A stretch of DNA of 20,956 nt from a virus, in the IMG/VR virus record IMGVR_UViG_3300030110_000007, positions 6,393 to 27,348 of that record; one strand, 5' to 3'. Shown piece after piece: positions 3,516 to 18,896 of the stretch. Positions within the stretch are counted from its first letter, which is position 1. The number at the start of each line of letters is the position of its first letter. Below the pieces are notes generated by a model, which was not told the origin of the DNA, did not search any database, and worked only from the letters and a program-made list of their open reading frames with translations. Both the position numbers and the translations under genes were made by a program.

Positions 3516-3817
3516 GTGATGAACTAATACACCTTATAAGCGTTTGGGCTATGCAGCGTGGTATAGTTAATAACAGCACACCTCTTGCACAGTTTGCCAA
3601 GCTTGTGTCTGAAATAGGAGAGCTAGGAGATAACATAGCCAAGCAGCGTGATGTTACTGATGACATCGGAGACTGTTTGGTGGTGTTAAACACATTAGCA
3701 ATTATGAACGACACCACCTTAGAACAATGCCTAAAGGTAGCGTATAATGATATTAAAGATCGTAAAGGACACATGAATAGTCATGGTGTCTTTATTAAAG
3801 AGGGAGATGTTGCATGA
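3512..3817 (+). CDS. MazG-like nucleotide pyrophosphohydrolase
   Basis: This 101-residue protein has the length and helix pattern of a single-domain phage MazG. Family members hydrolyse NTPs or dNTPs to the monophosphate with Mg2+ bound by an ExxE...ExxD acidic cluster. Here the cluster reads Glu34-I-G-Glu37 followed by Asp51-I-G-Asp54 in SEIGELGDNIAK and TDDIGDCLVVL. A helix LEQCLKVAYNDIKDRKG follows, which fits the usual LxxAxxEIxxRKG end. The canonical double Glu is Ser-Glu and the third Glu is Asp, so metal binding may be weaker than in the type enzyme. Between the reductase genes it could clean nucleotide pools or alter host ppGpp signalling, as proposed for cyanophage MazG. ATGA overlaps bind it to both neighbours. 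Confidence 0.8.
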   Translation: MSDELIHLISVWAMQRGIVNNSTPLAQFAKLVSEIGELGDNIAKQRDVTDDIGDCLVVLNTLAIMNDTTLEQCLKVAYNDIKDRKGHMNSHGVFIKEGDVA

Positions 3818-4785
3818 GCTTACTAGGAACTAGAGACTACTACAAACCGTTTGACCATCCTTGGATGTTCGACTACTACTCACAACAGAATCAGATGCAC
3901 TGGTTCCCAGAGGATGTGCCGCTGCACAATGATGTGAAAGATTGGCAGACAATGACTGATGAGGAAAAGAACCTATTGACTCAGATATTCCGTCTGTTTA
4001 CACAGTCTGATGTAGACGTAGGTGCTGGGTACGTTGACAGGTACATGCGTATCTTCAAAAAGCCTGAAGCGCGTATGATGATGTCTGCATTTGCGAATAT
4101 GGAGTCCATACATCAACACGCCTACAGCCTACTATTAGACACTGTAGGTATGCCAGAGGTGGAATATAAGGCGTTTGCAGAGTATGAGGCTATGGCAGAC
4201 AAGCATGACTATATTAACGCTGTAAAGGTTGCTAGGGGTGATAAGAAGTCTATTGCTAAAGCCCTCGCTATCTATTCAGGATTTACTGAGGGCTTGCAAC
4301 TCTTTAGCAGCTTTATCATATTGCTAAACTTCCCTCGCTTTGGGAAGATGAAAGGTATGGGACAAATCATTACTTACAGTATACGCGATGAGTCTATGCA
4401 CGTAGAAGCAATGACAAAGCTATTCAGGGAGTTCATGCAGGAAAATATTGACCTGTGGACTGATGACTTTAAGAAAGAAATATATCAGGCATGTCGAGAG
4501 ATGGTTGACCTAGAAGATAGGTTCTTGGACTTGGTGTTTGAGCAGGGTGACATACTCGGCCTAACTAAGAAAGAGATGCAACAATACATCAGATATATTG
4601 CTGACCGTCGCCTGTTACAGCTAGGACTGAAGCCTAACTATGGGGTTAAAAATAATCCGTTGAACTGGCTTGACGATGTGTTAGGTGTGGAGCATCAAAA
4701 CTTCTTTGAAGGCCGTGCAACTACCTACATGAAGGCTGGCTTACGTGGTGACGTTGGCAAAGTTTCCTTTAGTAAGGTTGCCTAA
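3814..4785 (+). CDS. nrdB: Ribonucleoside-diphosphate reductase small subunit, class Ia
   Basis: This beta subunit of class Ia reductase holds the di-iron centre and the tyrosyl radical used by NrdA. The full ligand set is present: Asp66 (TQSDVD), Glu97 and His100 (MESIH), Glu159 (GFTEGLQ), and Glu193 with His196 (RDESMH). The radical Tyr104 sits four residues after His100, the E. coli spacing. The length, 323 aa, is normal for the subunit without extra domains; there is no N-terminal ATP-cone. The C-terminal tail, used to dock on NrdA, ends KVSFSKVA. GGAG lies 7 nt before the start and ATGA overlaps the MazG-like gene. Together with nrdA it makes a complete reductase, but no thioredoxin or glutaredoxin gene is visible here. 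Confidence 0.97.
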   Translation: MSLLGTRDYYKPFDHPWMFDYYSQQNQMHWFPEDVPLHNDVKDWQTMTDEEKNLLTQIFRLFTQSDVDVGAGYVDRYMRIFKKPEARMMMSAFANMESIHQHAYSLLLDTVGMPEVEYKAFAEYEAMADKHDYINAVKVARGDKKSIAKALAIYSGFTEGLQLFSSFIILLNFPRFGKMKGMGQIITYSIRDESMHVEAMTKLFREFMQENIDLWTDDFKKEIYQACREMVDLEDRFLDLVFEQGDILGLTKKEMQQYIRYIADRRLLQLGLKPNYGVKNNPLNWLDDVLGVEHQNFFEGRATTYMKAGLRGDVGKVSFSKVA

Positions 4786-4993: not shown

Positions 4994-5194
4994 AATGTTT
5001 ACGGTCTGGGATGATGAAGATACATTGCGTACACTTATTGTCCCATGATCGTACTGATAGTACACAGTTCTGAAAACAGTAGTATCAATTCTATTAGTAC
5101 CCCCAGTAGTATCACTAACCACGTTATGGCGTGTCTGCGTATCAACGTAGCTGTTCAATAACATGTTTGAGATAGGTGATACAGGGCCTACCAT
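4985..5194 (-). CDS. Ser/Thr-rich hypothetical protein, 69 aa
   Basis: This is a 69-residue reverse ORF whose ATG overlaps the previous stop in the sequence AAATGGTAG, consistent with translational coupling; no clear ribosome-binding site is seen. The composition is unlike the Lys-rich genes upstream: many Ser, Thr and Val residues and an alternating pattern at the end (VRNVSSSSQTVNISV), suggesting beta strands. This looks like a small beta-structured protein or a fragment of a virion surface protein. It runs right up to the convergent junction and overlaps the forward gene by 9 nt. The lack of a ribosome-binding site keeps confidence moderate. Confidence 0.5.
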   Translation of the reverse strand: MVGPVSPISNMLLNSYVDTQTRHNVVSDTTGGTNRIDTTVFRTVYYQYDHGTISVRNVSSSSQTVNISV

Positions 5195-5475
5195 TTGACA
5201 CGGTTCGCCCAGTATGCCGCACTCATCTTACCCTTCTTAATGTTCGCACGGTGCCTTGCTTTGAAGCTGGCACGTTTCTTTTTCATTCGATCAGACTCTC
5301 CGGGCTTAGGCTTCCCCGCTGTACTGGCTCCCTGCTGCCCAAAGCGTATCGTCTTTATTTTGTCTCCTTCCTTTGCCACAACAATATGCGACTTCGTAGG
5401 ATGCTTTGGAGTCCTTTTGGGTTTGTTAAAGCCTGATACACCTGCGCGTTCTAAACGTGGGTCTTTCTTACTCAT
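5188..5475 (-). CDS. Small basic conserved phage protein, 95 aa
   Basis: This 95-residue protein has 28 Lys/Arg against 6 Asp/Glu. It has a Pro/Lys-rich N-terminus (FNKPKRTPKHPTKSH), a short strand-turn-strand (HIVVAKEGDKIKTIRFGQQG), and a basic C-terminal end ARHRANIKKGKMSAAYWANR closing in VKW. I recall closely similar proteins, including the SAAYWA...VKW ending, in many marine phages, always annotated hypothetical. The small beta unit with basic tails suggests nucleic-acid binding, but no named domain is evident. AGGA lies about 8 nt before the ATG, which overlaps the preceding stop as ATGA. It is part of a run of consecutive basic genes placed after lysis. Confidence 0.82.
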   Translation of the reverse strand: MSKKDPRLERAGVSGFNKPKRTPKHPTKSHIVVAKEGDKIKTIRFGQQGASTAGKPKPGESDRMKKKRASFKARHRANIKKGKMSAAYWANRVKW

Positions 5476-5720
5476 GACTTTTTCCTATATTGTCGAGTCT
5501 TCTTTGCAATCTTTTTGGGTTGTTTACTAAACTGTTTACCCTTAGCTGTATCCTCACGTTTCTTTTTAGTAGTAGCCGCATACTCCTTAGATGACAAAGA
5601 CTTGATGGCCTTCTCAGGCAGATAACGCTCTCCAGTTTCACTAGACTTCTTACCTGACTTGGTACGCCACTTTTGTTTTGTCCAAGCTTTAAGACTTCTT
5701 TGACTTTTTTTCAGTGCCAT
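5472..5720 (-). CDS. Very basic small protein (DUF5872-like), 82 aa
   Basis: Of 82 residues, 29 are Lys or Arg and only 6 are acidic. Recognisable elements are SLKAWTKQKWRTKSGKKS, TGERYLPEKAIKSLSSKEYA and a Lys-rich tail (QPKKIAKKTRQYRKKS). The Trp-Thr-x-Gln-x-Trp-Arg-Thr-Lys-Ser-Gly then GERYLP then SSxEYAAT layout matches a family I remember from marine phages, other bacteria and giant viruses, possibly Pfam DUF5872; I am unsure of the number. The role is unproven; charge and aromatic content fit DNA or RNA binding. Its start overlaps the stop of the 29-aa microprotein as TAATG. Confidence 0.82.
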   Translation of the reverse strand: MALKKSQRSLKAWTKQKWRTKSGKKSSETGERYLPEKAIKSLSSKEYAATTKKKREDTAKGKQFSKQPKKIAKKTRQYRKKS

Positions 5721-5809
5721 TATTGGTTATGCCTTTTATCCTGTTGTTGTCTAATCCACTCTGCAAGTTCTTCTTTACTTTGTTTTTCTTGCTGTACTTG
5801 TTTTGCCAT
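5720..5809 (-). CDS. 29-aa microprotein
   Basis: This short ORF reads ATG at 5809-5807 to TAA at 5722-5720. The product is MAKQVQQEKQSKEELAEWIR plus nine residues ending in RHNQ. GAGGAGG sits four bases before the ATG, one of the strongest ribosome-binding sites in the window. The stop overlaps the next ATG as TAATG, and without this ORF there would be a gap between otherwise touching genes. It overlaps the 3' end of the 100-aa basic gene by 35 nt. The peptide is predicted to be one charged amphipathic helix. The strong site could instead serve only to bring ribosomes to the downstream gene, so its status as a protein needs proof. Confidence 0.55.
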   Translation of the reverse strand: MAKQVQQEKQSKEELAEWIRQQQDKRHNQ

Positions 5810-6077
5810 GCTTCCTCCTCAGAGACTCCTTTGCCTTCTTTGCAATCTCTGCTTGTTTAGATTTACCAGCAACCTTAGCCCTCTGCTCCATTACAGTTAA
5901 GATTTGTATCTTACGTGCGTATGGTTTATTGATACCTTTTACTTTACGCGCAGTGTCTCTAGCGTCTTGTACAGTGGCGTACTTAATACGAACAGTATCT
6001 TTAGGGTTCTCATCAGTGTACAGTCTTCTACCGCTACCTTTAGGCTTTTTACCTGTACCCTTCTTAGGATCAGCCAT
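5775..6077 (-). CDS. Small basic conserved phage protein, 100 aa
   Basis: This 100-residue protein has 31 Lys/Arg and 9 acidic residues. A Gly/Lys/Pro-rich disordered start (MADPKKGTGKKPKGSGRRLY) leads into a compact central part (VRIKYATVQDARDTARKVKG), an Asn-Lys-Pro-Tyr-Ala-Arg-Lys-Ile motif and helices continuing to a basic tail. I recall similar proteins, especially the GSGRRLYTDENPKDTV and KPYARKIQILTV segments, in marine phages as hypothetical proteins. The KPYARKIQ segment looks like a helix suited to binding DNA or RNA, but this is inference. The ATG overlaps the upstream stop as TAATG and the 3' end overlaps the microprotein ORF. Confidence 0.82.
   Translation of the reverse strand: MADPKKGTGKKPKGSGRRLYTDENPKDTVRIKYATVQDARDTARKVKGINKPYARKIQILTVMEQRAKVAGKSKQAEIAKKAKESLRRKHGKTSTARKTK
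5814..5820 (-). promoter_or_regulatory. Strong ribosome-binding site for the 29-aa microprotein
   Basis: GAGGAGG lies four bases upstream of ATG 5809, inside the coding sequence of the 100-aa gene. It is the main evidence that the microprotein ORF is translated. Confidence 0.7.
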
Positions 6078-6280
6078 TACTTGTAGCCGCCGCCTGCATC
6101 TTTATAAGCCTTTGCTAACATCTGGGCTTTACGCGCACTCCACTGTCCCGGCTTACCGCCTTTGCTACCAGCTTTGATACGATTGAACTGACGCTTACGC
6201 ATTTCAGGCTTGGTATAGTTTCCTGCTTCGTTAACCCTAGACTTTGCTTTCTTTTTTGCTGGCTTCTTTTTAGCTGCCAT
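6077..6280 (-). CDS. Small basic conserved phage protein, 67 aa
   Basis: The start is taken at ATG 6280-6278, not the in-frame ATG at 6292, because GGAGG (6286-6290) overlaps the earlier ATG and sits five bases before the later one. The 67 residues include 21 Lys/Arg and 3 acidic. An AAKKKPAKKKAKSR tail is followed by AGNYTKPEMRKRQFNRIKAG and GKPGQWSARKAQMLAKAYK, ending GGGYK. I remember this NEAGNYTKP...GQWSARKAQ layout as frequent in cyanophage, pelagiphage and marine bacterial genomes, without known function. The Ala/Lys N-terminus resembles histone-H1-like tails, which suggests DNA compaction, but that is inference. It shares TAATG with the next gene. Confidence 0.85.
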   Translation of the reverse strand: MAAKKKPAKKKAKSRVNEAGNYTKPEMRKRQFNRIKAGSKGGKPGQWSARKAQMLAKAYKDAGGGYK

Positions 6281-6281
6281 G

Positions 6282-6749
6282 TCATCCTCCAAAATTTCTG
6301 ATTACAATACCTACTGCAACAACTGCTATTATACTACCAATTAAAAACACAAGTCCACCTACTGCGAGTTGGTTCATAAGTATATCTCTTTCTTTTTTCT
6401 TTTTCGCTATAAGCCGTAGGTGTTGCTGCCTAGCAGCTTCTTGCTCTGCCTTGGCTTTTTTAAACGCTTCCAAAGTGTCTGGATCTGCGACTAATAATAT
6501 ATCGTGTACGTCCTTCCAGTATCTCTCATAGCTTTTCTTAATCTGGGTGAGCTTCAAGATTTCACTCTGACTAAGCGGCTTGAACGTACTAGACTTTCGA
6601 TCTACTTCAAAGTTTGTTAAAGCTTCTCCAAAGTCACTAATAGTACCCATAAGTTGCTGGATACCCTGCCCAGACTCGTTAGCTGTCTTTATCAGCCCAT
6701 TCAGACTCGACAAGATGGCAGAAGCGGCTGCAACTGATTCTATGATCAT
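6282..6749 (-). CDS. Coiled-coil protein with C-terminal membrane anchor, 155 aa
   Basis: The 155 residues form a hydrophobic, Ala/Ser-rich N-terminal helix (MIIESVAAASAILSSLNGLI), a charged helical middle, a Lys/Glu/Gln coiled-coil at about 94-125 (LEAFKKAKAEQEAARQQHLR), and one membrane segment at about 128-150. RNFGG follows it. The gene begins with an ATGA overlap behind the holin, so it belongs to the lysis cassette by position. Rz-type inner spanins are coiled coils anchored at the N-terminus; here the anchor is C-terminal, so it is not a standard spanin. Options are an inverted spanin-like or tail-anchored lysis accessory protein, or a virion membrane protein. I recall similar tail-anchored proteins in marine podoviruses without assigned function. 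Confidence 0.82.
   Translation of the reverse strand: MIIESVAAASAILSSLNGLIKTANESGQGIQQLMGTISDFGEALTNFEVDRKSSTFKPLSQSEILKLTQIKKSYERYWKDVHDILLVADPDTLEAFKKAKAEQEAARQQHLRLIAKKKKERDILMNQLAVGGLVFLIGSIIAVVAVGIVIRNFGG
6286..6290 (-). promoter_or_regulatory. Ribosome-binding site that decides the start of the 67-aa gene
   Basis: GGAGG is five bases from ATG 6280 but directly abuts the earlier in-frame ATG at 6292, so initiation at 6280 is favoured. Confidence 0.7.
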
Positions 6750-7135
6750 TTTCTGGTCTTCTCGAAGCTCCTCATTGCACCTAAACCTAGCATACCCATG
6801 AGAACAGGCATCATAGTTTCTAGCGGAACTAGAGGAATAACAATATCCATGCCTACTAGGGCGAGTACAAAGTTAGAGAATGGTATTGTGATGAAGTTTC
6901 CAAACATTCCCAACCCACATGTCCAGCCAATGAAGGGCCTCCAGCCAGCAACAAACAAATTAGAACTAGCTGCCTCTACTTTGTTGACCTCTATCTGAGC
7001 CTTCATAAGATCTTGATGATGTTCTTCTGACATCGTTGCAATCTTGTGGGCCAGCATAGCCTTTTGATCTTTGTCTTCAATGAACTTGTCTAGCAAGCCC
7101 GTTACAGGCCCTACTAGCTGTGCTACAATACTCAT
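6746..7135 (-). CDS. Holin, GTA_holin_3TM family
   Basis: The start chosen is ATG 7135 (MSIVAQLVGPV), with GGAG 8 nt upstream. A longer in-frame start at 7189 lies inside the endolysin gene and has no such site. The 129-residue product has a charged helical N-terminal half (LDKFIEDKDQKAMLAHKI), the sequence QIEVNKVEAASSNLFVAGWR characteristic of the three-helix holins of gene transfer agents and phages (PF11351 as I recall), and hydrophobic segments at about 65-85, 86-101 and 105-122. Holins pore the inner membrane to release the endolysin encoded one base upstream. It ends SFEKTRK with a cytoplasmic-type basic tail. Confidence 0.88.
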   Translation of the reverse strand: MSIVAQLVGPVTGLLDKFIEDKDQKAMLAHKIATMSEEHHQDLMKAQIEVNKVEAASSNLFVAGWRPFIGWTCGLGMFGNFITIPFSNFVLALVGMDIVIPLVPLETMMPVLMGMLGLGAMRSFEKTRK

Positions 7136-7136
7136 A

Positions 7137-7505
7137 TTAATAACTCCAGATGTGTGGTCTTGGACGGCCTTTAGAGGATTCAAGGTCATCGAGGTGTATA
7201 AACCTTGTAGGGCCTTTCTGACTTACACCAATCCCAGTAAAGCCTGCCTCTAGAGCGCCCTGTACGAGCTTGTAAGCGGCTTCACCACGCAACCCTATGT
7301 CTATGGCCCTACCTGATGCATGTGCGCCGGGAGAGGCTTTACGGGCCTCTATGGGGTGATCAGCACAACGGTACGCAGAGTTAACAGGGAAGCTAAATCC
7401 AAGCTTCTCACGCAAGGCATCTACCTTCTGCATGAACTCATCATCCATACCAATTTCATTGCAGTGTCTGCATACCAGTTCTTCTTCTGTGAAATACTTA
7501 TACAC
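7137..7505 (-). CDS. Endolysin, M15-type zinc peptidase
   Basis: This 122-residue protein matches the small phage M15A/M15_3 peptidases that cut peptide cross-links in peptidoglycan. Zinc-site motifs are visible: SAYRCADHP (43-51), then GAHASGRAIDI with His62 and Asp69 seven apart, then FIHLDD with His104. An N-terminal CRHC at 12-15 is common in this subfamily. There is no signal peptide, so export depends on the holin next door. The start is GTG at 7505, with GAGG 7 nt upstream, overlapping the end of the 1684-aa gene by 8 nt; the weak start may limit endolysin yield. It is the first gene of the lysis cassette. Confidence 0.92.
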   Translation of the reverse strand: MYKYFTEEELVCRHCNEIGMDDEFMQKVDALREKLGFSFPVNSAYRCADHPIEARKASPGAHASGRAIDIGLRGEAAYKLVQGALEAGFTGIGVSQKGPTRFIHLDDLESSKGRPRPHIWSY

Positions 7506-10500
7506 CTTTCTTCCTCTTTAAAGCTGCTAAAACTTTACCACCACTCTCAAAGTTCTTTCTAAAACTTAGATTAAACTGCGGATCGCCAGAGTTTGTAGAG
7601 GCTCCCAGAGACAAGAAAGAGCCTTCATCGCCTCTAAATGTTTTAGATAAACTATAATCATCTCCCTGTACACCTACATCTACAGGTAAGCGGCTACTTA
7701 ACTCAGAAGCTATGCGTTCTTTTATTAGATCTTGAGCATCTCTTTGAGATAAAGTTACAGGTAATCCTGATCTAGATAACACTTCTTCTTTAAGTTGTTG
7801 CTTAACTTCGCTCTTGGTGAGAGGTATGCCTCTGTCTGTAAAGTATCTCTGCTTAACTTGCCGCTCTAACGTATCTATATCTTCAGCAGTGCTTGAGCCA
7901 TACTTATAGCCTTGGGCTTCCGCAAAACTAGAATATTCGGGAGAACCATAACCCATGTGAAAACCACCTTGATTAAACTTCTCACGCTTTGTAACGCCTT
8001 CAGGTAGTGAGGGCGTACCGTCTACTTCAATGTAGTCATAGAGCGGGTGAGTCTTTTTACCTACCTTTATTGTTCCTATAATATCTCCAAGAACAATATC
8101 CCCAACTGTCTCAGGTCTTAAATTAGGCTGCGGAACCTTACCGTCCTTACCCTTTCTAGTCATTCTGTTCATACGCACAGGGCCTACAAACTGAGTATCT
8201 AGAGTATAAAAATGTTCAGAGCCTCTACCTTCTACGGCAACTATGGGGTTGTCTAATCTGCCTTCTTTACCGTCTTCTATGATTCTAAACTTCTCAGGCT
8301 GTAAAAGGTTAGTACGCACTGTCTGAGGAGACTTAACGCCTGTAGCTTTCTTATAGTTTTCTTTCATTTGTGCAAGAGTTAAGTTCTCACCATCATATTC
8401 ATTCACCCTAGCAACAGACTTGTTACTTCCTGATGATAGTTTTTCTGCTGTTCTTGCAGTAACAAACAAGTTTTGCACAGTTTGATTACTTATATCTTTA
8501 GGCTTCCCAGCCATGCCAATGTAATTACCAAACTCAAGATCAACCTCAATACCAGCCCCCGTCATACCCTCAACAAACTTATCTCCTTTGTATCCTCTAC
8601 TTTCAGGATCAAAGAACTTACCGGGAGCAGGCATAACACTAGAAGCTGTTTCAGCCTCCATAGCCCTAGTCATTCTAGGTTCTAAAGTTTCTTCAAGCTC
8701 CTCAGTCTGTGTCATAACTACAGGCTTGTCAGGGTCTTGTATGACACGTTTATCGCCTTTACTACCCACAGTCTTGGTAGGCGTGAACAACTCACGAAGA
8801 CCTTTCGCGATAACAGTACTTCCTGCAACAAACCCAAGACGCTGTAAAGGATCTACCTCTCCACCGCCTGTAAAGCCTAGCCTGCGTAGAGGATCTTCCT
8901 CATCCACAAAAGCTGTACCAGCCTGTTGATCGTAGGGCATACCTGTCATCTTGTCGATGCGCTGGTCAGGCTCTTTAGAGGCGTTAGGTACGTCAAGTAC
9001 TTCACCGCCTTTGGCCCTTCCTTCCCTATAAGTATCTGTATCAAGATCTAATTTGTAATCAGGCGTGTACAACGATGAGCCGTTTAGTTCCGACTGTACG
9101 TTTGATAAAGAATCTCTGAACTGCAAAGACTTTTTACGTGCTGTATCAGGGTCAATCTTTTTAAAAGCTCTAAAAGACTCTACAGTAAGAACTTCATCTC
9201 TAGGGTTAGTACCCTTAAATTGACCCAACACTATACTGGCAGCTTTAGATCTACTAATACCGTTCTCTCTTAATATCTTCATAGCATCTTTCTTGCCATA
9301 AAGAGTTACATAGGCATTAGTAATCTTAAATAAGTCTTGTTGTCCCTCGTATATTTTTTGCTGCTGCTCTCTGTACTCTGAAATATATTCTTCAGGATTT
9401 GTGTCATAAAGAAACTTTTGACTACGGTTAGAGTCTTCTATTCTGTTATAGTCTCTAACAGCAAACTGTAAATTTAAATCAGGATCGTATTTAGTAAACC
9501 TAACACCAGTTAAGTTAGCAATTAATTCATTTTGAGCGTTGCGTGGTTCACCTGAATATCTGTTAGGCTCTTCATTTAAAGCCTCTACATATCTTTGAAT
9601 AGAAGTGACGCTTCCCGGTACAAAAGTATTTAGTACATCACCAACAAAATCTTCTACTTCTATTTGACCCCTGTAAAGCTTTGTTCCTGAATTCAGCATA
9701 GCTTCAGTAATCATCTCTTGAGAAGCAAAAGGTTCTAACAAAGACGCAGCAGTATCTTTAGCGGCCTCAAATAAAGCATCATCTAAATCATCACCACGTA
9801 AAGCGCCCTCATTTATTCTGTCTACAGCAATCATTACAGGACGCTTAATAAACTCATAAGAATCTAAAAAGCGTGTGTCAACAAAGTAAAGCTGACCATC
9901 TTCATCCATACGCCAAAGCTTATTAGAGTCTTTGTTAAAAGCTCCTTCAGCTAAGTCTGTGTGCGCCCGTTGTTCTTCTTCTGTCCAACCAAGAGCGTCC
10001 ATAGTGGCCTTTGAAGCTTCGTTAAAACCTATAGCAGTAGCAGTAAATCCTGATAGTCTTCTAAGACCTCTGTTTCTTAAAACAGTATTACCAGAGTTAA
10101 TTTCTTCTGAAGCCTGTTTTACAATCTTTATAGATGTACGAGCTATCTCAGCAGGAAAAGATACGAAGTTACCCACAGGCATATCCCTCAACGCCTTAAT
10201 ACCCTTGGGTACTTTATCGTAGTTAGGTATTGTATCTTGAACAATTTGAGCAGCTTTTATTTCTAAAACATCTTCTGCTACGTCAGGAAAAGCCTTTTTA
10301 AGAGTAGCAAGCTCATTACCAAAAGCATTAAGTTTGTAGAAATCGTCAGTAGCCATGTAAGCTTTTTCAGCGCCCCTGAATACAGCCTTAACGCCCGTAT
10401 CAACCTGACGCACACCGGGAACACCCTCAACATATTTAATTTTTTCTAGTTGCTTTGTAATAAAACTAGGCTCACGCTCCATGCCTGCCTCAAGAAGCGC

Positions 10501-12552
10501 CCTAAACTCGTTAACTTTTACGTTAGTGTTTATTACCCCTAAACGCAAATACTTTTCATAAGCCTCATCAAACTCTTGATCTCCTTTGTTTAAAAGACTG
10601 TTAAATAAAGTACGTCCAGACTTTAATCCGCTGCTTGTAAAAGGCATCATACCGTTTGCAATACTAAACTGTGCGCCACCTAAAAAGTTTCTTATGTGCG
10701 TTACGTGATTTCCCACAGTTTTCATTTGTTGTGAAAAACCTTTAGCAGTTGCAAAGTTTTGAAGTAATACAGCTAAAGGATTATTACCTTCCATAACACT
10801 AGAGAACATTTCTTCTTTACGTTCTAATGCTTGCAGCATCTCAGGGGTGGTGTATTTACCATCTAATATTGAGTTAGTACCTGAAATCTTAGCAGTATTG
10901 CGGCCCCCTTCTCTTGCAGTGAGATAGCCACCAGTTTTTCCTAGTTCATTAAACTGTCTATAAAAGTTATTTACCTCATAAATTCTAGATGCCTTTGCAA
11001 CAGATAAAATAATACTTTCAGATGGAGAAGTAACTTCGCCCAATAAAGCTCTTATTGGCTCTGGAATATCTTTCTTTTGTTTAAAAGTGCTTACTCTACG
11101 AACCTGTGATAAATAATCTACTACTTCTGCATCATCTGCTTTACTAAGTATCTTATCTACCTGAGATTCTGCTTTAGAAAGAGCATCATCAATGTCCATA
11201 TCAGGTGTTGCTTCAAGTAAGTCATCTGCTAAAAATTGAACAGCGTTTTCTCTTACTTCACTTGAAGGCTTAAAGGCAGGGTCTTCAAACATCCTGTAAG
11301 ACCTACGCATGTAGTTACCTACATTAGCTGATATAGATTGTTTTACATCTGCACTAAACCCTTTACTGCCTACAATCTTTTTAGATAATCCATCCATCAA
11401 CTGACGGGCATTTATAACTTCATTAGCTACTTCTTCTGAGAGCCTGTATTGGCTTCTAAAAAACTCTACACGTTCTTGTTCAGGCATCTCATAAATAAAA
11501 CTTGCGTCAGCCTGTAAAGCTTCCTGCACACGGTCAGACATTTCTTTAGAAGACGTTTCATCTGTAATTTTCTTTAAGGCAATGTTAAGCCTATTGCCAA
11601 TGTTTTCAGCAGCCCTTATGGTTTGTCTTTGAGAATATTGTGTGTCTCTAAAAGCATTGTAAGCCTGTGGGGTCATATATCCTTCAGAAGTAAAGAAACG
11701 TCTTGCGAGTCTTTTTAAAACATTGCCTTGCCCTGCAACCTGTTCAATACCTTCTTGAGTCTCTCTTGTTACTTCTCTTGCAGCAGGAAGATCCTCACGC
11801 TCAACACCAACACGGCCTTCTCTGCGGGCTTCTATATCGGCACGTTTTGCTTCCTTACGGGCATCTCCCAGATAAGACATGAGAACTTCTGTTTGCTCTT
11901 CTTCAGACAACTGATCGTATTTTTTACTCTGCCCCATTCTTTTTAAAGTTGCTGCAAAAGAAACACCACGCTCTATAAGAGGTATCAAACCTACGTCCTG
12001 AATAACCATCTTCATTCTATTAGTTATTTCATCATCGTCTGCGTCAGCAGCCATGTACTCAATAAAAGTATTTTTTGATGCTTCAGGAAAAGTATCTTCT
12101 ACAATATTAAAAAGATTTTCTGTTGGGTCTGTTAAAAGCTGCTCAGTAATTGCAGCGCCTGCGATAGGAGCAGCAACTCTCTCTCCTAAACCTAAAGCCC
12201 TAGCACCTCTTGTGATGCCTGTAAATGGAACTGCATAAGCACCTATTTCTCCTGCAAGCTGGCCTACAGCGCCGGGAATTGTTTCAGCCTCACGAACCTC
12301 GCCTTCTTCTGTAAAAGCATCCTCCTCTTTTACTCCCAAGGCACTTAACATAGGCGCAGTTAAACCTTTAGAGATGCCTGCTTTTAATTTTCTACGCTCT
12401 TCAAGATCTTCTTCTGTAAGTTCTTCTAAGCCTTCACCTCCTAGTGTACGGATCTTTGAGTCCATTACATATCGGGCAGCATCATACAGGCTGAAAGGAG
12501 CTTCAACTAATGTCTCTCCAAACTTAGCTATAGATTTACCAAACTCATCCAT
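7498..12552 (-). CDS. Giant internal virion/ejection-type protein, 1684 aa
   Basis: This is the largest gene in the window and the last large virion gene before lysis, the position of T7 gp16. It begins with a helical region containing a hydrophobic Gly/Ala stretch near 90-140 (VGQLAGEIGAYAVPFTGITR), then about 1000 residues of mostly charged helix. After about 1180 comes a different Gly-rich part with AKGGEVLDVPN, KEPDQRIDKMTGMPYDQQAG and a duplicated DPLxRLGF octapeptide (1220-1227 and 1234-1241). The final segment is more structured and ends ESGGKVLAALKRKKGV. I recall the KGG...DVPN...RIDKMTG...PYDQQAG block from other marine phage giant proteins. No lytic transglycosylase or protease motif is clear. 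TAAATG joins it to the previous gene, with AGGA upstream. The ejection role is inferred from size, order and composition. Confidence 0.85.
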   Translation of the reverse strand: MDEFGKSIAKFGETLVEAPFSLYDAARYVMDSKIRTLGGEGLEELTEEDLEERRKLKAGISKGLTAPMLSALGVKEEDAFTEEGEVREAETIPGAVGQLAGEIGAYAVPFTGITRGARALGLGERVAAPIAGAAITEQLLTDPTENLFNIVEDTFPEASKNTFIEYMAADADDDEITNRMKMVIQDVGLIPLIERGVSFAATLKRMGQSKKYDQLSEEEQTEVLMSYLGDARKEAKRADIEARREGRVGVEREDLPAAREVTRETQEGIEQVAGQGNVLKRLARRFFTSEGYMTPQAYNAFRDTQYSQRQTIRAAENIGNRLNIALKKITDETSSKEMSDRVQEALQADASFIYEMPEQERVEFFRSQYRLSEEVANEVINARQLMDGLSKKIVGSKGFSADVKQSISANVGNYMRRSYRMFEDPAFKPSSEVRENAVQFLADDLLEATPDMDIDDALSKAESQVDKILSKADDAEVVDYLSQVRRVSTFKQKKDIPEPIRALLGEVTSPSESIILSVAKASRIYEVNNFYRQFNELGKTGGYLTAREGGRNTAKISGTNSILDGKYTTPEMLQALERKEEMFSSVMEGNNPLAVLLQNFATAKGFSQQMKTVGNHVTHIRNFLGGAQFSIANGMMPFTSSGLKSGRTLFNSLLNKGDQEFDEAYEKYLRLGVINTNVKVNEFRALLEAGMEREPSFITKQLEKIKYVEGVPGVRQVDTGVKAVFRGAEKAYMATDDFYKLNAFGNELATLKKAFPDVAEDVLEIKAAQIVQDTIPNYDKVPKGIKALRDMPVGNFVSFPAEIARTSIKIVKQASEEINSGNTVLRNRGLRRLSGFTATAIGFNEASKATMDALGWTEEEQRAHTDLAEGAFNKDSNKLWRMDEDGQLYFVDTRFLDSYEFIKRPVMIAVDRINEGALRGDDLDDALFEAAKDTAASLLEPFASQEMITEAMLNSGTKLYRGQIEVEDFVGDVLNTFVPGSVTSIQRYVEALNEEPNRYSGEPRNAQNELIANLTGVRFTKYDPDLNLQFAVRDYNRIEDSNRSQKFLYDTNPEEYISEYREQQQKIYEGQQDLFKITNAYVTLYGKKDAMKILRENGISRSKAASIVLGQFKGTNPRDEVLTVESFRAFKKIDPDTARKKSLQFRDSLSNVQSELNGSSLYTPDYKLDLDTDTYREGRAKGGEVLDVPNASKEPDQRIDKMTGMPYDQQAGTAFVDEEDPLRRLGFTGGGEVDPLQRLGFVAGSTVIAKGLRELFTPTKTVGSKGDKRVIQDPDKPVVMTQTEELEETLEPRMTRAMEAETASSVMPAPGKFFDPESRGYKGDKFVEGMTGAGIEVDLEFGNYIGMAGKPKDISNQTVQNLFVTARTAEKLSSGSNKSVARVNEYDGENLTLAQMKENYKKATGVKSPQTVRTNLLQPEKFRIIEDGKEGRLDNPIVAVEGRGSEHFYTLDTQFVGPVRMNRMTRKGKDGKVPQPNLRPETVGDIVLGDIIGTIKVGKKTHPLYDYIEVDGTPSLPEGVTKREKFNQGGFHMGYGSPEYSSFAEAQGYKYGSSTAEDIDTLERQVKQRYFTDRGIPLTKSEVKQQLKEEVLSRSGLPVTLSQRDAQDLIKERIASELSSRLPVDVGVQGDDYSLSKTFRGDEGSFLSLGASTNSGDPQFNLSFRKNFESGGKVLAALKRKKGV
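8830..8895 (-). repeat. Duplicated octapeptide DPLxRLGF in the 1684-aa protein
   Basis: Residues 1220-1227 (DPLRRLGF) and 1234-1241 (DPLQRLGF) are 14 residues apart and separated by TGGGEV. The codons differ at most third positions, so the copies are not a recent DNA duplication and are probably kept by selection on the peptide. Confidence 0.85.
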
Positions 12553-13866
12553 TTAAAGTTTTCCTAAGTCAGCTATCTCTTGCATTATTGTGAAATATTG
12601 AGTTCTTCCATTTCTCTTATCATCGTCCGTAGCCCCGTCCCCGAACATTAGCTCATTAGCAATCGCCAACCTATCTTGATATGCTTGAGATTTTAGCACT
12701 GCTTCTTGAATAGCTGTAAATTCTTGAGAGGGCGCAGTAATATAATCAACAGGATTATTTTGAGAATCTGTTTTAGCTTGGCCTACCTCATAGAAAATTT
12801 CTAAAGCTTTATTGTATTTATCTAATGTGTCTATATTCATACTAATATTTGCAGCACCAAGTCTGCGTTGAAACTCTCTAGACCCAGCATCATTAAAAAC
12901 AACTGTCATTTTATCAATAGGATTAAAAGATGTTTTAGCATTCCTCAGAGCTATCTTTTCAACAGCTTCTTGATCATCCATGTCGGCAGATTCTACTCTT
13001 TTAAGATCCGCTTTTAATTCTTCACCCGTTATTCTGTCAAACTGTTTTATTTGCTTAGAGTAGTTATACTTACCTGTAGTTGCATTAAATCCACCTTGAA
13101 AAGTTACTTCCTTTCTTGTGTCTCTTTCTAACTGACCTAAATCAGCTAAGTCTTGAGCTTCAATAATACTACCTGTAAGATCATAAGCCTCTTGAAGCCT
13201 TATAGCCTCAGACTGTTGGTTAGGTGACGCAGGCAAAGCTAAACGCCCAAGAGAACTTTCTCTCAAAGCTTGAATACTGCGACGATCAAGCTCTTCATTG
13301 GAAGTACCGTTTAAAAAATTTATAAAGCCTTTAAAAGCACTATCAGGTCTTTTGCTTGTCATTTTTAGTACATCTTCAAAACTACCCTGTGCCCTAAATC
13401 TATCAGCAAAGTCTTCTCTTGCTTTCTGTGCAGCAGACCTTTCTACTGCTACTGCTCTGGCATCTCTAGCTATAACAGCATCTTCTTTACCCGCATTAAT
13501 ATAAGCAACTCTATCTAGATCATCTGAGTATTTAGTTAAATATTCCTGTTTAATATCATCAAAAGCACTATTGTAATAATAGTTGTCAATACCCCCAGAA
13601 GCCATATACTTTTGGCGTTCTGCATCAGCAGCCTTAGCAATTCTTTCAGCATGGTTATATTGAATCCTTGCGTTCATAACGCCTTCGCTGTTCATAAAAG
13701 CTTGCTGTTTCTTTTGTAAATTACTTCTATACAGCCCAATACCTACAGCACCTGCAAGTCCTAACAGCGCATTACGTTCCTCACGCCTACGAAGCTTTCT
13801 AGCTTGATCTTCATCACGCTTACGTTTTTCAGATAATAGGGATTCCCCAAGTTGTTCAATAGCCAT
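12553..13866 (-). CDS. Internal virion-type protein, 437 aa
   Basis: This 437-residue protein opens with a very basic and charged helix (LLSEKRKRDEDQARKLRRRE), a short hydrophobic Gly/Ala segment at about 34-46 (LLGLAGAVGIGLY) and then long charged helices. The basic-hydrophobic-helical plan resembles phage internal core proteins such as T7 gp15, and it sits directly upstream of the gp16-like giant gene, as gp15 does. Later parts (FNPIDKMTVVFNDAGSREFQ and NNPVDYITAPSQEFTAIQE) look globular, but I recognise no catalytic motif. The start is preceded by AGAGG encoded in the last codons of the 185-aa gene. The virion role is inferred. Confidence 0.82.
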   Translation of the reverse strand: MAIEQLGESLLSEKRKRDEDQARKLRRREERNALLGLAGAVGIGLYRSNLQKKQQAFMNSEGVMNARIQYNHAERIAKAADAERQKYMASGGIDNYYYNSAFDDIKQEYLTKYSDDLDRVAYINAGKEDAVIARDARAVAVERSAAQKAREDFADRFRAQGSFEDVLKMTSKRPDSAFKGFINFLNGTSNEELDRRSIQALRESSLGRLALPASPNQQSEAIRLQEAYDLTGSIIEAQDLADLGQLERDTRKEVTFQGGFNATTGKYNYSKQIKQFDRITGEELKADLKRVESADMDDQEAVEKIALRNAKTSFNPIDKMTVVFNDAGSREFQRRLGAANISMNIDTLDKYNKALEIFYEVGQAKTDSQNNPVDYITAPSQEFTAIQEAVLKSQAYQDRLAIANELMFGDGATDDDKRNGRTQYFTIMQEIADLGKL

Positions 13867-13867
13867 A

Positions 13868-14425
13868 TTATTGCCTCTGCATTAAACTAGGTGGCGGTGC
13901 TTCCTGTGGAGGTGGTCGAGCCATTAAAGACTCCGTAGGACGTTCAGGAAGCTCTGCTGCCTCTACACGATCCATAGCCATTTGAGTCTCATCAGAAAGT
14001 TCTGAAGGCTGTGAAAGCTCTGGACGCTGTACAGTTACACCAAACATATCCTCTTCATCATCTTCCTGTACTACATACTCTATACCTGCACGTTCTGCAA
14101 GTCCCATGATCATATAGGCTACAGGCTCAACAAGAAGAAGCATCAAGTCAGGATTAAACTGGCCTTCATTGAAGCCTGAGAAAAGAATAAGGCGAGTGGC
14201 CTCCATTATGGTTGTGCCTTCTATAAGACTGTCCATCAAAGGAAGATAATTTTCTTCTGCCGTCATCTGATCAAATATAAAATCTATTGCCTCTTGTGCA
14301 ACAGTAAACTCTGTAGCGCCTGTATACGGCTCTTGTACATCAGGATCTAGCGTTAATGACTCACCCGGAATAGGCCGTTCCATCTTTGCAAAGTGTTCCT
14401 GTAGTTCTGGTGTAGTATCATCCAT
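13868..14425 (-). CDS. Acidic protein with Pro-rich tail, 185 aa
   Basis: This 185-residue protein is strongly acidic, unlike its neighbours: many Glu/Asp and few Lys. A disordered N-terminus (LTLDPDVQEPYTGATEF) leads to a central helical domain (AQEAIDFIFDQMTAEENYLP, then MLLLVEPVAYMIMGLAERAG), an acidic loop (VQEDDEEDMFG) and a low-complexity end with two PPP runs (MARPPPQEAPPPSLMQRQ). An acidic partner among basic ejection proteins could act as a chaperone or a small core component; this is inference. Its start overlaps the previous stop as TAATG with AGAGG 9 nt before, and its last codons encode the next ribosome-binding site. No family is recognised. Confidence 0.8.
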   Translation of the reverse strand: MDDTTPELQEHFAKMERPIPGESLTLDPDVQEPYTGATEFTVAQEAIDFIFDQMTAEENYLPLMDSLIEGTTIMEATRLILFSGFNEGQFNPDLMLLLVEPVAYMIMGLAERAGIEYVVQEDDEEDMFGVTVQRPELSQPSELSDETQMAMDRVEAAELPERPTESLMARPPPQEAPPPSLMQRQ

Positions 14426-15822
14426 TATGATATACCTCTAGCCATTTGTGGATTAAAGGGATCAAACATAAACTGCTGACCCCAAGCAGATAAGGGTGCG
14501 TTGTAAGTTGCTGGGGCTTGTAAGCCTTGAATAGGTGACTGCATTACTTGTGGCACTGATGAACCCAGCATTGCTTCTGGATTTTGTATTATACCCAGAT
14601 TAACCACTTCACCTGAACTTGCAAGCATTTGAGACTGCATATCTAAATACTCTTGTTCGGCTGCTAACTTTTGTGCAGCACTCGCACCTGCTTGAAGTAC
14701 GGCGGCGGGATCTGTAAGAGCCGCTTTCTTTTGTGCTATTCCTTCAGAAGTATAATCTATAAAACCAGTTCCTACGTTTTTAAGATCAGCAGCAAGGCGC
14801 TCACCAGTTCCTATATTATAAGTACTTCCTTGAAAATCAAAAGTTTTTTGACCAGAAACACTTAAAGCTTTCTGTTTAGCCGCCCTAAATCCTTCAGTAA
14901 TATCCATGCCTTGTGAAATGTCTGGCTGTAAACTTGTGTCAGGTGTAAAAGGTAGATCAGTAGATTTAGGCGTTAGTAAACTAGTATCTGCTTGTACAGT
15001 TAGATCTGTAACTGGTTGAGGCTCTACTGAAGTAATAGGACGCATAGTTTCTGGGGTAGCATTTAAATCTGCTGTACCGAATCTATAAATTTGTTCGTCA
15101 GTAATTCTAGCTACCTCTGGAAATTCCATATTCACAGCTTCAGAAACTTTTAAGAACTGAGAATCAACACCCTCTTTGGTTAGCAGTTGAGTAGCTTTAC
15201 GTGTTGCAATTTCTGCTCTAGCTGTAGCACTAAAAGGACTTCTTACAGACTGACCAACTCTTGAAATAGCAGAGTCTGGGCCAGTAAAAAAATTTTTAGA
15301 AGCAGTTTGCACATTCATTCCAAGCTTACTAGCGGCTGTTTTAGTAAACTCACCAATAGTGCTGGTTACTGCATTTGTAACAGACTGAAAGGCTTTGAAA
15401 GGTGAAGAGGCGACTTTTCCTGCAAACTGAAGAAAATGCCCTGCGGCCTGTGAAGCTGTACCTCCCGCAAATAAACCAGTAGCAGTTCCTTGAATACCTG
15501 CTTTAGTCGCTGCGGCTGCTGCGGTTTTAAAAGCTGCTTGACCTGCTGCGGCCTGTGCTGCTGCACTTGCCCCTGCTTGTGCTGCTGATGCTGAAGCCGC
15601 ACTTGCTGCTGCTGTTCCTGCGGCTTGTGCCCCAGCCTGTGCTGCTGTTTGTCCTATAAAGCCTTTTATAGCACCACCAATAGCTTGACCAATACCCGGA
15701 AGAATAAACATCATAGCTACTTGACCAAGTATGCCAATCTTGCCCATGAATTTACCAAAAGCTTTAAAAGCCTTTTTAATACCCCTACCAATTTTTTTAA
15801 ATACTTTTCTTAAAAATCCCAT
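14425..15822 (-). CDS. Cationic, Ala-rich ejection-type virion protein, 465 aa
   Basis: The first 28 residues carry ten Lys/Arg and no acid (MGFLRKVFKKIGRGIKKAFK then AFGKFMGK), forming an amphipathic helix like a membrane-active peptide. A hydrophobic stretch follows (29-48, IGILGQVAMMFILPGIG), then a region at 60-108 with 30 alanines in 49 residues. The rest is mixed helix and Thr/Pro/Gln-rich linker, ending DPFNPQMARG. Similar N-termini (GFL...KKIGRGIKKAFK...GILGQ) occur in other marine phage virion proteins, from memory. The layout suggests a protein that inserts in or crosses the host membrane during DNA delivery, like small core proteins of T7-type phages; this is inference. AGG, shared with the previous TAG stop, lies about 7 nt before the ATG. 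Confidence 0.83.
   Translation of the reverse strand: MGFLRKVFKKIGRGIKKAFKAFGKFMGKIGILGQVAMMFILPGIGQAIGGAIKGFIGQTAAQAGAQAAGTAAASAASASAAQAGASAAAQAAAGQAAFKTAAAAATKAGIQGTATGLFAGGTASQAAGHFLQFAGKVASSPFKAFQSVTNAVTSTIGEFTKTAASKLGMNVQTASKNFFTGPDSAISRVGQSVRSPFSATARAEIATRKATQLLTKEGVDSQFLKVSEAVNMEFPEVARITDEQIYRFGTADLNATPETMRPITSVEPQPVTDLTVQADTSLLTPKSTDLPFTPDTSLQPDISQGMDITEGFRAAKQKALSVSGQKTFDFQGSTYNIGTGERLAADLKNVGTGFIDYTSEGIAQKKAALTDPAAVLQAGASAAQKLAAEQEYLDMQSQMLASSGEVVNLGIIQNPEAMLGSSVPQVMQSPIQGLQAPATYNAPLSAWGQQFMFDPFNPQMARGIS
15499..15645 (-). repeat. Ala-rich low-complexity tract in the 465-aa protein
   Basis: Residues 60-108 contain 30 Ala in 49, mixed with Gly, Ser, Gln and Thr, encoded by runs of GCA/GCT/GCC codons. 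The tract lies between the hydrophobic segment and the rest of the protein. Confidence 0.85.
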
Positions 15823-15830
15823 ACTATTTC

Positions 15831-18800
15831 CTATAATTTTTTAAAGAACGATTCTGCTAGACCCATAAGTGTCGAAGTGGTGCCTTCACCTTTTTCAGCA
15901 GCAGAGTCATTAGCAAGAGCCGTAGCATATAGTGTAGCCTTACGCTGCTGATCATTCTCATACGCCTGCCTTATATAAGCAGCTTCATCTCTAAGGTTCT
16001 GCCACAAGAAAGACTGCTCTGCTGAATTAAGATTAAAAGCCATCTGTGCATTTTGTTGATTAGCCGCATTGATAGCTGCGCTGTTTATCGTATTAGACTT
16101 TCTGCGCCACTCTACATTAGACTGCTCTACGGCCTGTCTGTTGGCAGCATTCCACTGATCACGTTGAAAGTCTATTGTCGCATTAAATTGCTTTACTTGA
16201 TTTCTAATAGCAGCGTTAGCCTTATTAACTTCTAGTCGATTATTAGCATTTATAGCAGAAGCTTTATTCTTTTCTGAAACATTAAACTGCTTCATAGAGT
16301 TTGATTGACTAGTATTAAACTGAGACATCTGTGCGCCAAGACTAGCCATAAATTGATCTGCTTGATTTTTTGAAGCAGCATTAAACTGTCTAGCAGCGTT
16401 TGTAGCAGATTGATCTGAAAGAATACGTTGTTGCTTTAACTGCTGATCAAGAACTGTGGCTTGTTGTCTATTGTTAAGATTAGCCATGTCCATAGCTAAA
16501 AAATTCTGAGCATTTTGAATAGATACTTTAGTACGCGCATCAGCATTCGCCATATCCATAGCAGCCTGTGTAGTAGCATTTTGCATCGCTGCCTGTTGCC
16601 TAGCATTGAAGTTTGTCATTGTCATAGACTGCATAAACTTACTGTTTGTTAATTCTACTTGTTGTGCAGCGTTAAACTTAGTTAAATCTATGTTAGCAAC
16701 CATAGCTGCATTCTGTACTGCACGTTGCTGATCTACATTTAATTGAGCTATACCCATCTCTTGAGCTAACTTACCCTGTAACAAATTCGTCTGCATACGA
16801 GTATTAAGATTAGCTAACTCAGTCTGCTGGGCTGCACTAAGATTCTGTGCGTCTGCCTGATTCAGAGCAGAAAGATTTGCAAGCCTCATCTGTTGATCAT
16901 TACTTAGATTAGCAAGCTCCATCTGTTGTCTAAAGCCAGCATTCTTTGAAAGAAAATCAGCAGCTACTTGCATCTCTGCAAGACGCTCTTGATTCTGGGC
17001 AGTCATATTTTCACGCTGAGTAGCATCTTCTATTTGAAGATTAGCAAGCTCTATTTGCTGAGAATTACTTAAATTTTGAGCATTAGAAGCTTGTTGATTT
17101 TGAGCGTTTAATACAGCAGCTTGCTGTTGATTCTGAAGATTCTGAGTACGTGTCTGCTGCTGCTGTTGTGCAGTAGTAAGTACAGCCTGTTGACTAAACT
17201 GACTTTGAAGAGTAGCCATCTGCTGTGCATTTGCAGCAGTCTGTGAAGCCGCTGTCTGCCTATTAGACAAGTTAGCCATACGCCGCTGCATGTCTTGTGT
17301 AGACTGTGCAAGATTAGCCTGTTGCTCATTGCTTAGGTTCTGTGCGGCACGTTGCTGTAAGGCCTGTGCGTTGCTCTGAGCCATTGGAAGCGCACTCTGT
17401 ATGATTGCATTAAACAGTGCGTCACGGCCTACTGTGGAAGCTGAGAGGCCCCTCTGAGCTAAGTTAGCTTCAATAGCTGCTACTGCTGGTCTGGCCCATG
17501 CAGGAGTCTTGCCATCTTCCATACCACCTAGTAATGTTTCCATTTGAGATGAGACAAGAGCCTCTGTAGGCAATGCTGCAATAGCTGCACGTACTTCTAC
17601 AGGTTGATCGTCAATCTGTGCTTCTACAGTTGCAGGATCTTCTACAATGGCTGCTGTAATAGTAGGTGGTAAGTCGCCAACCTCTGCAATCATAGAGGCT
17701 GCTGCACCTTTAGCTGCTTCACCTTTTACTGTACGTCTTTGTGCAGCTTCATAACCTACAGTGCCTATAATCTGTGCAGCATTTCCATCTTCTGCTGGTT
17801 TACCTGTGATAGCTTCACGTTGTTTAGCTTCTGCTTCGCGTGTAGGAGCTACCTCAGTAGTCTGACCAGTAACTTTATCTACATAAGCACCGTCAGATAT
17901 TTCAAAATCTGTTACATCTGCTTTTGCTTTTGCTTCTTGTGCAGCGCTTCTTCTGGCTGCTGTTGCTGGTGCAGTCATGGTTGCGTCAAATGCTTCTGCC
18001 TCAACACTTACTTCACCTTGTGCAGCTTTTGTAGCTGCTAAGTTTTTTGCTTTATCAGCAGTGTAAGTATCAGCTTTTGCTGCTCTTCTTGCAGCGCCCG
18101 AAGGTACTTTTGCTTTAGTTGTTTTAGCAGTTAGTGCTTTAACTTTAGGAGCTTTACGAACTGTTGAAGCTTTTACATCTTTTTGAGCGCGTATCTTCTC
18201 TGCATCCCCCAGTGCAGTACCCTCTAGATCTACATCTTCTGTTTCTACTTCATCAATCTCAAAAAGATCTGGAGGTGTAATTTCTACTTGTGGTGGCCCA
18301 TCAGTACTCATATTGTCTCCTCCACCTTCGTTATCTTCATCATCTGTATCAGTATTAGCTCCATCAGTACCACCATCAGTATCTGATGTTCCCCCTGATG
18401 CTCCTTGTGTTGTAGCTTGTCTAGCCTTCCAAGCTTCAAGATCTGCCTCGTACTGCTTTACTTTTTCTTTATAGCTTCTACTTGACTGACCCATTCCTCC
18501 CGGTCTTTTCGGAGGCGTGGGCTTCGGATCATTTGTAGAGGTTGTTGAGGTTGTCGTAGTTGTTGTAGTAGGATTTGTAACGACTACATCGCCTGTGTCT
18601 CTTGGCGGGACACTCTGTTTCCCCGTTTTATTTTCTAGTGGATTATCACCGGGAACTATACTTTGTGTAGGAGCTACGCCAACTGTAACAGAACCCCCAG
18701 CATCTCCTGAAGGTTGAGTTGTTGTAGGTTGAGCAGGTTGTTGTTGGGCTTGTTCTGCTTGTTCAGCTATCATACGCTGAATATCTTCGTCACTAGGGCC

Positions 18801-18896
18801 ACCATTACGTCTATTTAAACGCCCACCATTAACCCTCTTCTGTCGAAGTGCTTTTAAAACTTTTTTATTGTTCCTATTTTTTCTTTTATTACTCAT
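15831..18896 (-). CDS. Hendecad-repeat virion protein, 1021 aa
   Basis: The start is ATG 18896 (MSNKRKNRNNKK), with AGGA 7 nt upstream and two bases after the previous stop. A longer in-frame start at 19031 would add a Cys-rich tail read antisense-like through the neighbouring gene. Four parts are visible. Residues 1-30 are basic. Residues 31-230 are disordered (Gln/Pro, a Thr run, Gly/Asp-rich). Residues 231-505 are Ala/Lys-rich helices with a compact segment TPAWARPAVAAIEANLAQRG. Residues 507-957 are 41 strict 11-residue repeats followed by a short C-terminal end. I recall related WA-PAV...RGL...NLxNxQQ...QFNA proteins in many marine phages, annotated as structural or hypothetical. The position, between tail and ejection genes, and the helical rod suggest an internal virion protein. 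The function is inferred. Confidence 0.85.
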   Translation of the reverse strand: MSNKRKNRNNKKVLKALRQKRVNGGRLNRRNGGPSDEDIQRMIAEQAEQAQQQPAQPTTTQPSGDAGGSVTVGVAPTQSIVPGDNPLENKTGKQSVPPRDTGDVVVTNPTTTTTTTSTTSTNDPKPTPPKRPGGMGQSSRSYKEKVKQYEADLEAWKARQATTQGASGGTSDTDGGTDGANTDTDDEDNEGGGDNMSTDGPPQVEITPPDLFEIDEVETEDVDLEGTALGDAEKIRAQKDVKASTVRKAPKVKALTAKTTKAKVPSGAARRAAKADTYTADKAKNLAATKAAQGEVSVEAEAFDATMTAPATAARRSAAQEAKAKADVTDFEISDGAYVDKVTGQTTEVAPTREAEAKQREAITGKPAEDGNAAQIIGTVGYEAAQRRTVKGEAAKGAAASMIAEVGDLPPTITAAIVEDPATVEAQIDDQPVEVRAAIAALPTEALVSSQMETLLGGMEDGKTPAWARPAVAAIEANLAQRGLSASTVGRDALFNAIIQSALPMAQSNAQALQQRAAQNLSNEQQANLAQSTQDMQRRMANLSNRQTAASQTAANAQQMATLQSQFSQQAVLTTAQQQQQTRTQNLQNQQQAAVLNAQNQQASNAQNLSNSQQIELANLQIEDATQRENMTAQNQERLAEMQVAADFLSKNAGFRQQMELANLSNDQQMRLANLSALNQADAQNLSAAQQTELANLNTRMQTNLLQGKLAQEMGIAQLNVDQQRAVQNAAMVANIDLTKFNAAQQVELTNSKFMQSMTMTNFNARQQAAMQNATTQAAMDMANADARTKVSIQNAQNFLAMDMANLNNRQQATVLDQQLKQQRILSDQSATNAARQFNAASKNQADQFMASLGAQMSQFNTSQSNSMKQFNVSEKNKASAINANNRLEVNKANAAIRNQVKQFNATIDFQRDQWNAANRQAVEQSNVEWRRKSNTINSAAINAANQQNAQMAFNLNSAEQSFLWQNLRDEAAYIRQAYENDQQRKATLYATALANDSAAEKGEGTTSTLMGLAESFFKKL
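16026..17378 (-). repeat. 41 tandem 11-residue (33-nt) coding repeats
   Basis: Residues 507-957 of the 1021-aa protein divide into 41 units of exactly 11 residues with no insertion or deletion. Asn is at unit position 3 in 30 of 41, and small or hydrophobic residues occupy positions 1, 2 and 4. Early units look like LANLSNDQQMR and AQNLSNEQQAN; later ones like QFNAASKNQAD and QWNAANRQAVE. Eleven-residue periodicity is the hendecad pattern of weakly right-handed or straight coiled coils. Confidence 0.92.
18297..18395 (-). repeat. Gly/Asp/Thr-rich disordered tract
   Basis: Residues 168-200 of the 1021-aa protein consist almost only of Gly, Asp, Thr, Ser, Asn and Glu (for example DTDGGTDGANTDTDDEDNEG). 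The tract is acidic and predicted disordered, between two short helical parts. Confidence 0.7.
18534..18569 (-). repeat. Thr-run trinucleotide tract
   Basis: Residues 110-121 of the 1021-aa protein read as seven Thr followed by STTST, encoded by a near-continuous ACx triplet tract (visible on the plus strand as GT-rich triplets). Such tracts can change length by slippage without frame loss and often act as glycosylation-like or flexible linkers. Confidence 0.75.

Follow-up and report, generated by a model that had tools for sequence, protein, structure and literature searches.

A phage protein with an unbroken 11-residue repeat array as a candidate ejection protein of HMO-2011-type podoviruses

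The 20,956-nucleotide stretch of viral DNA analysed here (hereafter, the window), which belongs to a 27-kb viral fragment, encodes on its minus strand a 1021-aa protein (15831..18896, ATG at 18896) whose C-terminal half is a single array of 11-residue units that never changes phase. Our analysis somewhat favours the view that this is a virion-borne ejection (pilot) protein, acting as a helical tape or conduit in HMO-2011-type podoviruses and their wider relatives. The arrangement of the genes hints that the protein is co-injected with the DNA and takes part in building a passage through the envelope, but is no proof of this. When the protein and its homologs were searched by sequence against Pfam, PHROG and the PDB, no family or notable match was returned, and a PDB fold search with a low-confidence model of the protein gave nothing below E 0.2; similarity in sequence or fold to a known ejection protein was absent from all of these searches. 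In the literature we found neither a mass-spectrometry or structural record of the 1021-aa protein, nor virion proteomics for HMO-2011-type relatives, nor a characterisation of the HMO-2011 gp25 family, whose members are hypothetical proteins.

An 11-residue array in a large phage family

Based on conservation, the protein begins with a poorly conserved, Pro/Thr/Gly-rich part with a basic start (aa 1-280, 18057..18896), followed by a conserved region (aa 281-506, 17379..18056) for which AlphaFold predicts helices from aa 340 onward. The array comes next, and the protein closes with a conserved tail carrying the motif LWQxLRDEA (aa 958-1021, 15834..16025); all of these lie on the minus strand. 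From residue 505 to the C-terminus there is no Pro.

A preliminary description of the sequence reported 41 unbroken 11-mers at aa 507-957 (window 16026-17378), with Asn at position 3 in 30 units and a drift from LANLSNxQQ to QFNxxxxN forms. We recovered the array at exactly these coordinates, with the same 30 of 41 Asn residues (the maximum at any position in 5,000 shuffles was 16) and with the change of unit type falling at about unit 30/31. Using a phase-tracking hidden Markov model that permits phase switches, each at a price, the array was extended to aa 505-966 (15999..17384, minus strand), or 42.0 units with no switch. These 462 residues would measure up to about 69 nm; the earlier figure of 68 nm (451 × 0.15 nm) is arithmetically correct, provided that the rod is one helix. 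Residue identity within the protein is 0.24 at lag 11 and 0.27 at lag 22, compared with about 0.10 at most other lags. At the DNA level, no tandem repeat was detected within the array-coding stretch, and for 32-39 of the 41 units the best match is the same-numbered unit of a relative, with 69-83% identity as opposed to about 20% to other units. Amplification must therefore be old, and the units have become individually fixed. A 22-residue super-period of alternating units (e.g., LAN and AQN starts) is superimposed on the 11-residue period in window 16389-17378; it is confined to the N-terminal and middle zones of the rod defined below and is absent from the C-terminal zone.

Homologs were found by tblastn in 27 phage records, which include the Pelagibacter phages HTVC103P, 104P, 115P and 033P, the roseophage CRP group, HMO-2011 (gp25), Vibrio phage CHOED, Pseudoalteromonas phage Slicky01, Aeromonas phages MQM1 and 1233, Sinorhizobium phage phiM6 and Rhizobium phages. 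IMG/VR contributed 79 close loci, and a profile of distant members matched at least 577 stretches; the distant set analysed here comprises 80 of these. The window protein belongs to the HMO-2011 gp25-type family, with which it shares both homology in the pre-repeat region and the 11-residue array, and the family as a whole is a large and undescribed one among phages. HMO-2011 gp25, CHOED_13, MQM1_18 and SmphiM6_25 are members by sequence and by gene position, although they have 17-33 units, compared with 42 in the window protein. A scan of genome contigs gave three matches only, all in binned metagenomes. These homologous phage contigs (L093-L095) sit in bins labelled Maricaulis, Campylobacteraceae and Sphingobacteriales; they are probably free phage binned with hosts, so a host assignment would be unsafe.

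Relatives do not break the phase freely. A single unbroken 11-residue phase was found in 144 of the 146 homologs tested, namely, 64 of 66 non-redundant close and phage-isolate sequences and all 80 distant ones, and each of the two remaining proteins has one shift at the extreme C-terminal end of the array. Unit number nevertheless varies from about 11 to 46 (18-76 nm), and it does so by whole units. Between a conserved site N-terminal of the array and another C-terminal of it, the distances were 461, 450, 395, 351 or 340 residues, whose differences are exact multiples of 11 in 35 of 35 homologs. With a second pair of anchors, the rule was held by 68/68 close and 58/64 distant homologs; the six exceptions are probably mis-picked anchors, because phase tracking of the same 80 distant proteins showed no break. 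The sequences are related, so these counts are not independent. Most gains and losses of units map to the N-terminal portion of the array; alignment occupancy there drops to 57-64%. In the arrays of 171 homologs (53,411 residues) there are two Pro and no Cys, compared with 6.7% Pro upstream, the Pro count being slightly biased by array boundaries drawn with a model that disfavours Pro; Gly accounts for about 1% of the same residues.

The preliminary description had read the length of the rod as sufficient to span a Gram-negative envelope. With unit numbers of about 11 to 46 among relatives, 68 nm cannot be taken as a measured requirement, and the length does not support envelope spanning.

In Roseobacter phage CRP-235 (L012, 6303-8834), the repeat protein carries an N-terminal LysM and a C-terminal Peptidase_S74 domain. 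A Pfam scan of 95 homologs (15 + 80) found neither domain in the other 94, and the C-terminal S74 chaperone domain is likewise absent from the window protein. Judging from these domains, LysM is suggestive of contact with peptidoglycan and S74 of trimerisation, the latter for the CRP-235 member only. The CRP-235 protein also matched phrog_4287, "DNA ejection protein"; this match runs solely through the S74 domain, so it was discounted and is not counted as evidence for ejection.

Helix geometry and zoning of the rod

AlphaFold2, run with 50 sequences, placed only helices and no strands in the protein, albeit at low confidence (pLDDT 59.6, pTM 0.28). The longest confident helix spans aa 843-999 (157 residues) and covers the C-terminal zone. 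Together with the near absence of Pro and the phase kept by relatives, this all-helical prediction supports the long helical rod of strict 11-residue phase that had been proposed. The C-terminal half would then be a Pro-free alpha-helical rod in which each 11-residue step makes three helical turns and adds about 1.65 nm.

The rod is zoned. In its N-terminal zone (units 1-13, aa 507-649, 16950..17378, minus strand), recognised from alignment occupancy, spectra and the 22-residue super-period, the sequence is Gln-rich and the hydrophobic faces are weak. The middle zone (units 14-30, aa 650-836, 16389..16949, minus strand) has two nearly opposite hydrophobic faces, 161-171 degrees apart: one is formed by positions 1 and 4, the other by positions 6 and 10 and, in some units, also 2. 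In the C-terminal zone (units 31-41, aa 837-957, 16026..16388, minus strand), which is made of QFN-type units, the 1/4 side is lost and the hydrophobic 2-6-10 side is retained as the one main face. The switch from two faces to one lies 12-13 units from the C-terminal end in the close set and in 12 distant phages; the drift in unit type, which had prompted the idea of at least two amplified ancestors, is thus seen as two zones that keep a conserved distance from the C-terminus.

A hendecad coiled coil throughout the rod, as implied by the preliminary description, does not agree with the hydrophobic spectra. For the rod as a unit, the power at a period of 11/3 is only 0.0-0.2, or about zero, whereas 11/4 and 11/5 give strong signals; on an 11/3 helix, 11/5 aliases the second harmonic, which corresponds to two faces per turn. 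The 11/3 peak appears only in units 31-41 (7.4) and is about zero in the middle zone. A classical hendecad coiled coil with one stripe of period 11/3 was consequently rejected for the rod as a whole. The suggested polar core of Asn residues is not supported either: Asn-3, at 196 degrees on the 11/3 wheel, lies outside the core, beside the 2-6-10 face and next to the charged side. That charged side (positions 7/11, 35-41% charged in the middle zone) is opposite a 5/9 side, located between the two hydrophobic faces, with 53-54% Gln/Asn and 72-76% Gln/Asn/Ser/Thr in the middle zone, and with 53-60% Gln/Asn over the middle and N-terminal zones. This layout of the middle zone seems suited to several helices packed side by side, with one side bearing amides. 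The helices may form a barrel or sheet around an amide-faced lumen, similar to the phiX174 H tube, while the C-terminal 12 units would form a more ordinary one-faced bundle.

The same zone can be read differently, as helices of about 22 residues folded into hairpins or a bundle, with no single rod; the phase would then persist owing to the need for every helix to contain a whole number of units. The 22-residue super-period of the N-terminal and middle zones agrees with such folding back, as does the AlphaFold model, in which the helix breaks of the middle zone fall mostly at unit positions 3-5 and some lie 22 residues apart. Most of these breaks, however, fall in low-confidence sequence, and the scarcity of Pro and Gly in the 53,411 array residues would be unusual for a protein of many turns. 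We therefore consider this arrangement rather unlikely.

The conserved late cassette

The repeat gene heads a conserved series of minus-strand genes. Immediately downstream of it lies the gene of a 465-aa protein (14425..15822) with a basic amphipathic and Gly-rich hydrophobic N-terminus that is conserved in 73 loci; judging from this N-terminus, the protein is probably a membrane-acting ejection component. It is followed by a 185-aa protein with the motif PIPGxSLT (13868..14425), which matched no family and is a constant partner of the repeat gene: among distant loci that extend at least 2.5 kb downstream, it lies downstream of the repeat gene in 70 of 70, and it also occurs in 14 phage records. 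The next protein (437 aa, 12553..13866) is mostly helical according to AlphaFold and resembles T7 gp15-type ejection proteins in size and position. Its best PDB fold match is the PhiM1 ejectosome, at an E value of 0.077 that is not significant and serves as a lead only. The cassette ends with a giant protein of 1684 aa (7498..12552), whose residues 406-1020 are related to gp123 of Cellulophaga phage phi18:3, a protein annotated as a virion protein from MS/MS. The counterpart of the giant protein in HTVC033P contains the LPD38 domain, known from large polyvalent phage proteins. In phi18:3 itself, the source of the MS-proven protein, no such repeat protein was found in the 16 kb examined, a point that weighs against the ejection reading.

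This order (repeat protein, usually a basic membrane-type protein, PIPGxSLT protein, mid-size protein and giant protein) is common to close relatives and to the annotated genomes of phages of Pelagibacter, Roseobacter, Vibrio, Aeromonas and Rhizobium. It therefore spans phages of alpha- and gammaproteobacteria, the second gene being shorter or different in some of them. The repeat gene thus heads a conserved cassette that contains a relative of an MS-proven virion protein. This argues against the protein being an assembly factor or an internal scaffold and absent from the mature virion, and so do the large size and strong conservation of the repeat protein; such a role, for which it can be said that direct proof of virion presence was not found, is highly improbable.

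As an ejection protein, the repeat protein would be stored in the head of the particle alongside its cassette partners and, during infection, would pass the short tail as an extended helix. It would help to build the passage through the envelope together with the membrane-acting 465-aa protein and with the 437-aa and 1684-aa proteins. An unfolding and refolding of the rod in the portal, as earlier supposed, would not be required, since a single helix should be thin enough to pass extended.

The neighbourhood of the gene also allows for a rod on the outside of the virion, i.e., a coiled-coil neck or tail fibre or a needle. The repeat gene lies directly downstream of a Peptidase_S74 fibre gene in the window and of tail-fibre genes in relatives, and the CRP-235 version ends in an S74 domain, which is typical of homotrimeric fibres. 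Nevertheless, S74 occurs in only one of the 95 scanned homologs, no receptor-binding or beta-structured tip was recognised, the middle zone does not show the one hydrophobic stripe that marks a coiled coil of two or three strands, and the downstream cassette partners resemble ejection proteins. An external rod is, on this evidence, unlikely.

Comparison with known ejection and tape measure proteins

By analogy, the nearest functional likeness to the repeat protein appears to be protein H of phiX174, although by sequence the repeat protein lies outside the H family and the named ejection families. H is a decameric alpha-helical tube (PDB 4JPP), a Gln-lined hendecad/heptad tube for DNA (PMC7354561). 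Both proteins have a long, Pro-free, Gln-rich helix with 11-residue units, 19% Gln and an amide-rich side, and for both the carriage of DNA across the envelope has been proposed. They differ in that H has three hendecads followed by 11 heptads (121 residues, 17 nm), whereas the window protein has 42 hendecads; moreover, H belongs to a microvirus and the repeat protein to a dsDNA podovirus, and no sequence relation was found between them. Contrary to expectation, H did not show the two-faced hydrophobic spectrum, so this signature is not validated as the mark of a tube. For T4 fibritin, a known coiled coil, the helix band led in 18 of 27 windows, as expected.

In T7 and DEV, as outlined in PMC10925440, the ejection machinery is encoded in operons of membrane or small, mid-size and giant proteins, and DEV gp72:gp73 is presented as a nonameric channel with a 25-angstrom lumen (PMC10925440; PMC8954989). 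Our late operon, with its membrane-type, mid-size and giant genes, has a T7 gp14/15/16-like composition. More generally, its likeness to T7 gp14/gp15/gp16, DEV gp73/gp72/gp71 and PhiM1 consists in the short tails of the phages, the helical nature of the proteins and a late cassette that ends in a giant gene preceded by membrane-type and mid-size genes. In contrast, there is no sequence match, and the repeat gene is an extra at the head of the cassette; the text available from the literature on the T7, DEV and PhiM1 ejection proteins describes no 11-residue rod in them.

In some siphophages, tape measure proteins contain tandem 11-residue units with F/W markers and gain or lose such units (PMC3271669). 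The period of 11 and the whole-unit gain and loss are shared with the repeat family, and there is a weak match (E 5.5e-4) between the adjacent 465-aa protein and a tape-measure PHROG, so that the unit number might likewise set the length of some virion part. However, the siphophages have long tails, whereas podoviruses have no long tail tube, and the constant residue of the repeat family is Asn, accompanied by Gln, instead of F/W. Additionally, the 20 units of MQM1 would predict 33 nm, yet its tail measures 9.2 nm. A tape-measure-like ruler is accordingly quite unlikely.

A bolder version of the ejection reading, which we regard as unlikely in its entirety, is that the DNA conduit is a continuous hendecad helix tens of nanometres long, assembled into a large amide-lined barrel. 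Its length would evolve in 1.65-nm steps, each lineage tuning the reach of the channel as complete units are added to or removed from the rod's N-terminal end. In-phase repeats of up to 46 units in highly divergent phages, with length changing by whole units only, make the protein a directly testable molecular ruler or conduit, and the natural variants of about 11 to 46 units constitute a ready-made length series. If present in virions, the protein would represent a new architecture among ejection proteins.

The remainder of the late operon and the region beyond it offered several further observations. The cassette is followed by an M15 endolysin and a holin; the latter (window 6746-7189, minus strand) matches GTA_holin_3TM (3.4e-20), a holin family of gene transfer agents. 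At the end of the late operon (window 5188-6292, minus strand), four consecutive genes encode small Lys-rich proteins (71-100 aa) with no Pfam match. Finally, the window encodes the large chain of a ribonucleotide reductase and a separate small chain (276-2156 and 3814-4785; Ribonuc_red_sm, 1.1e-79), and this two-subunit enzyme contrasts with the annotated B12-dependent reductase of HMO-2011, which adjoins the same structural region.
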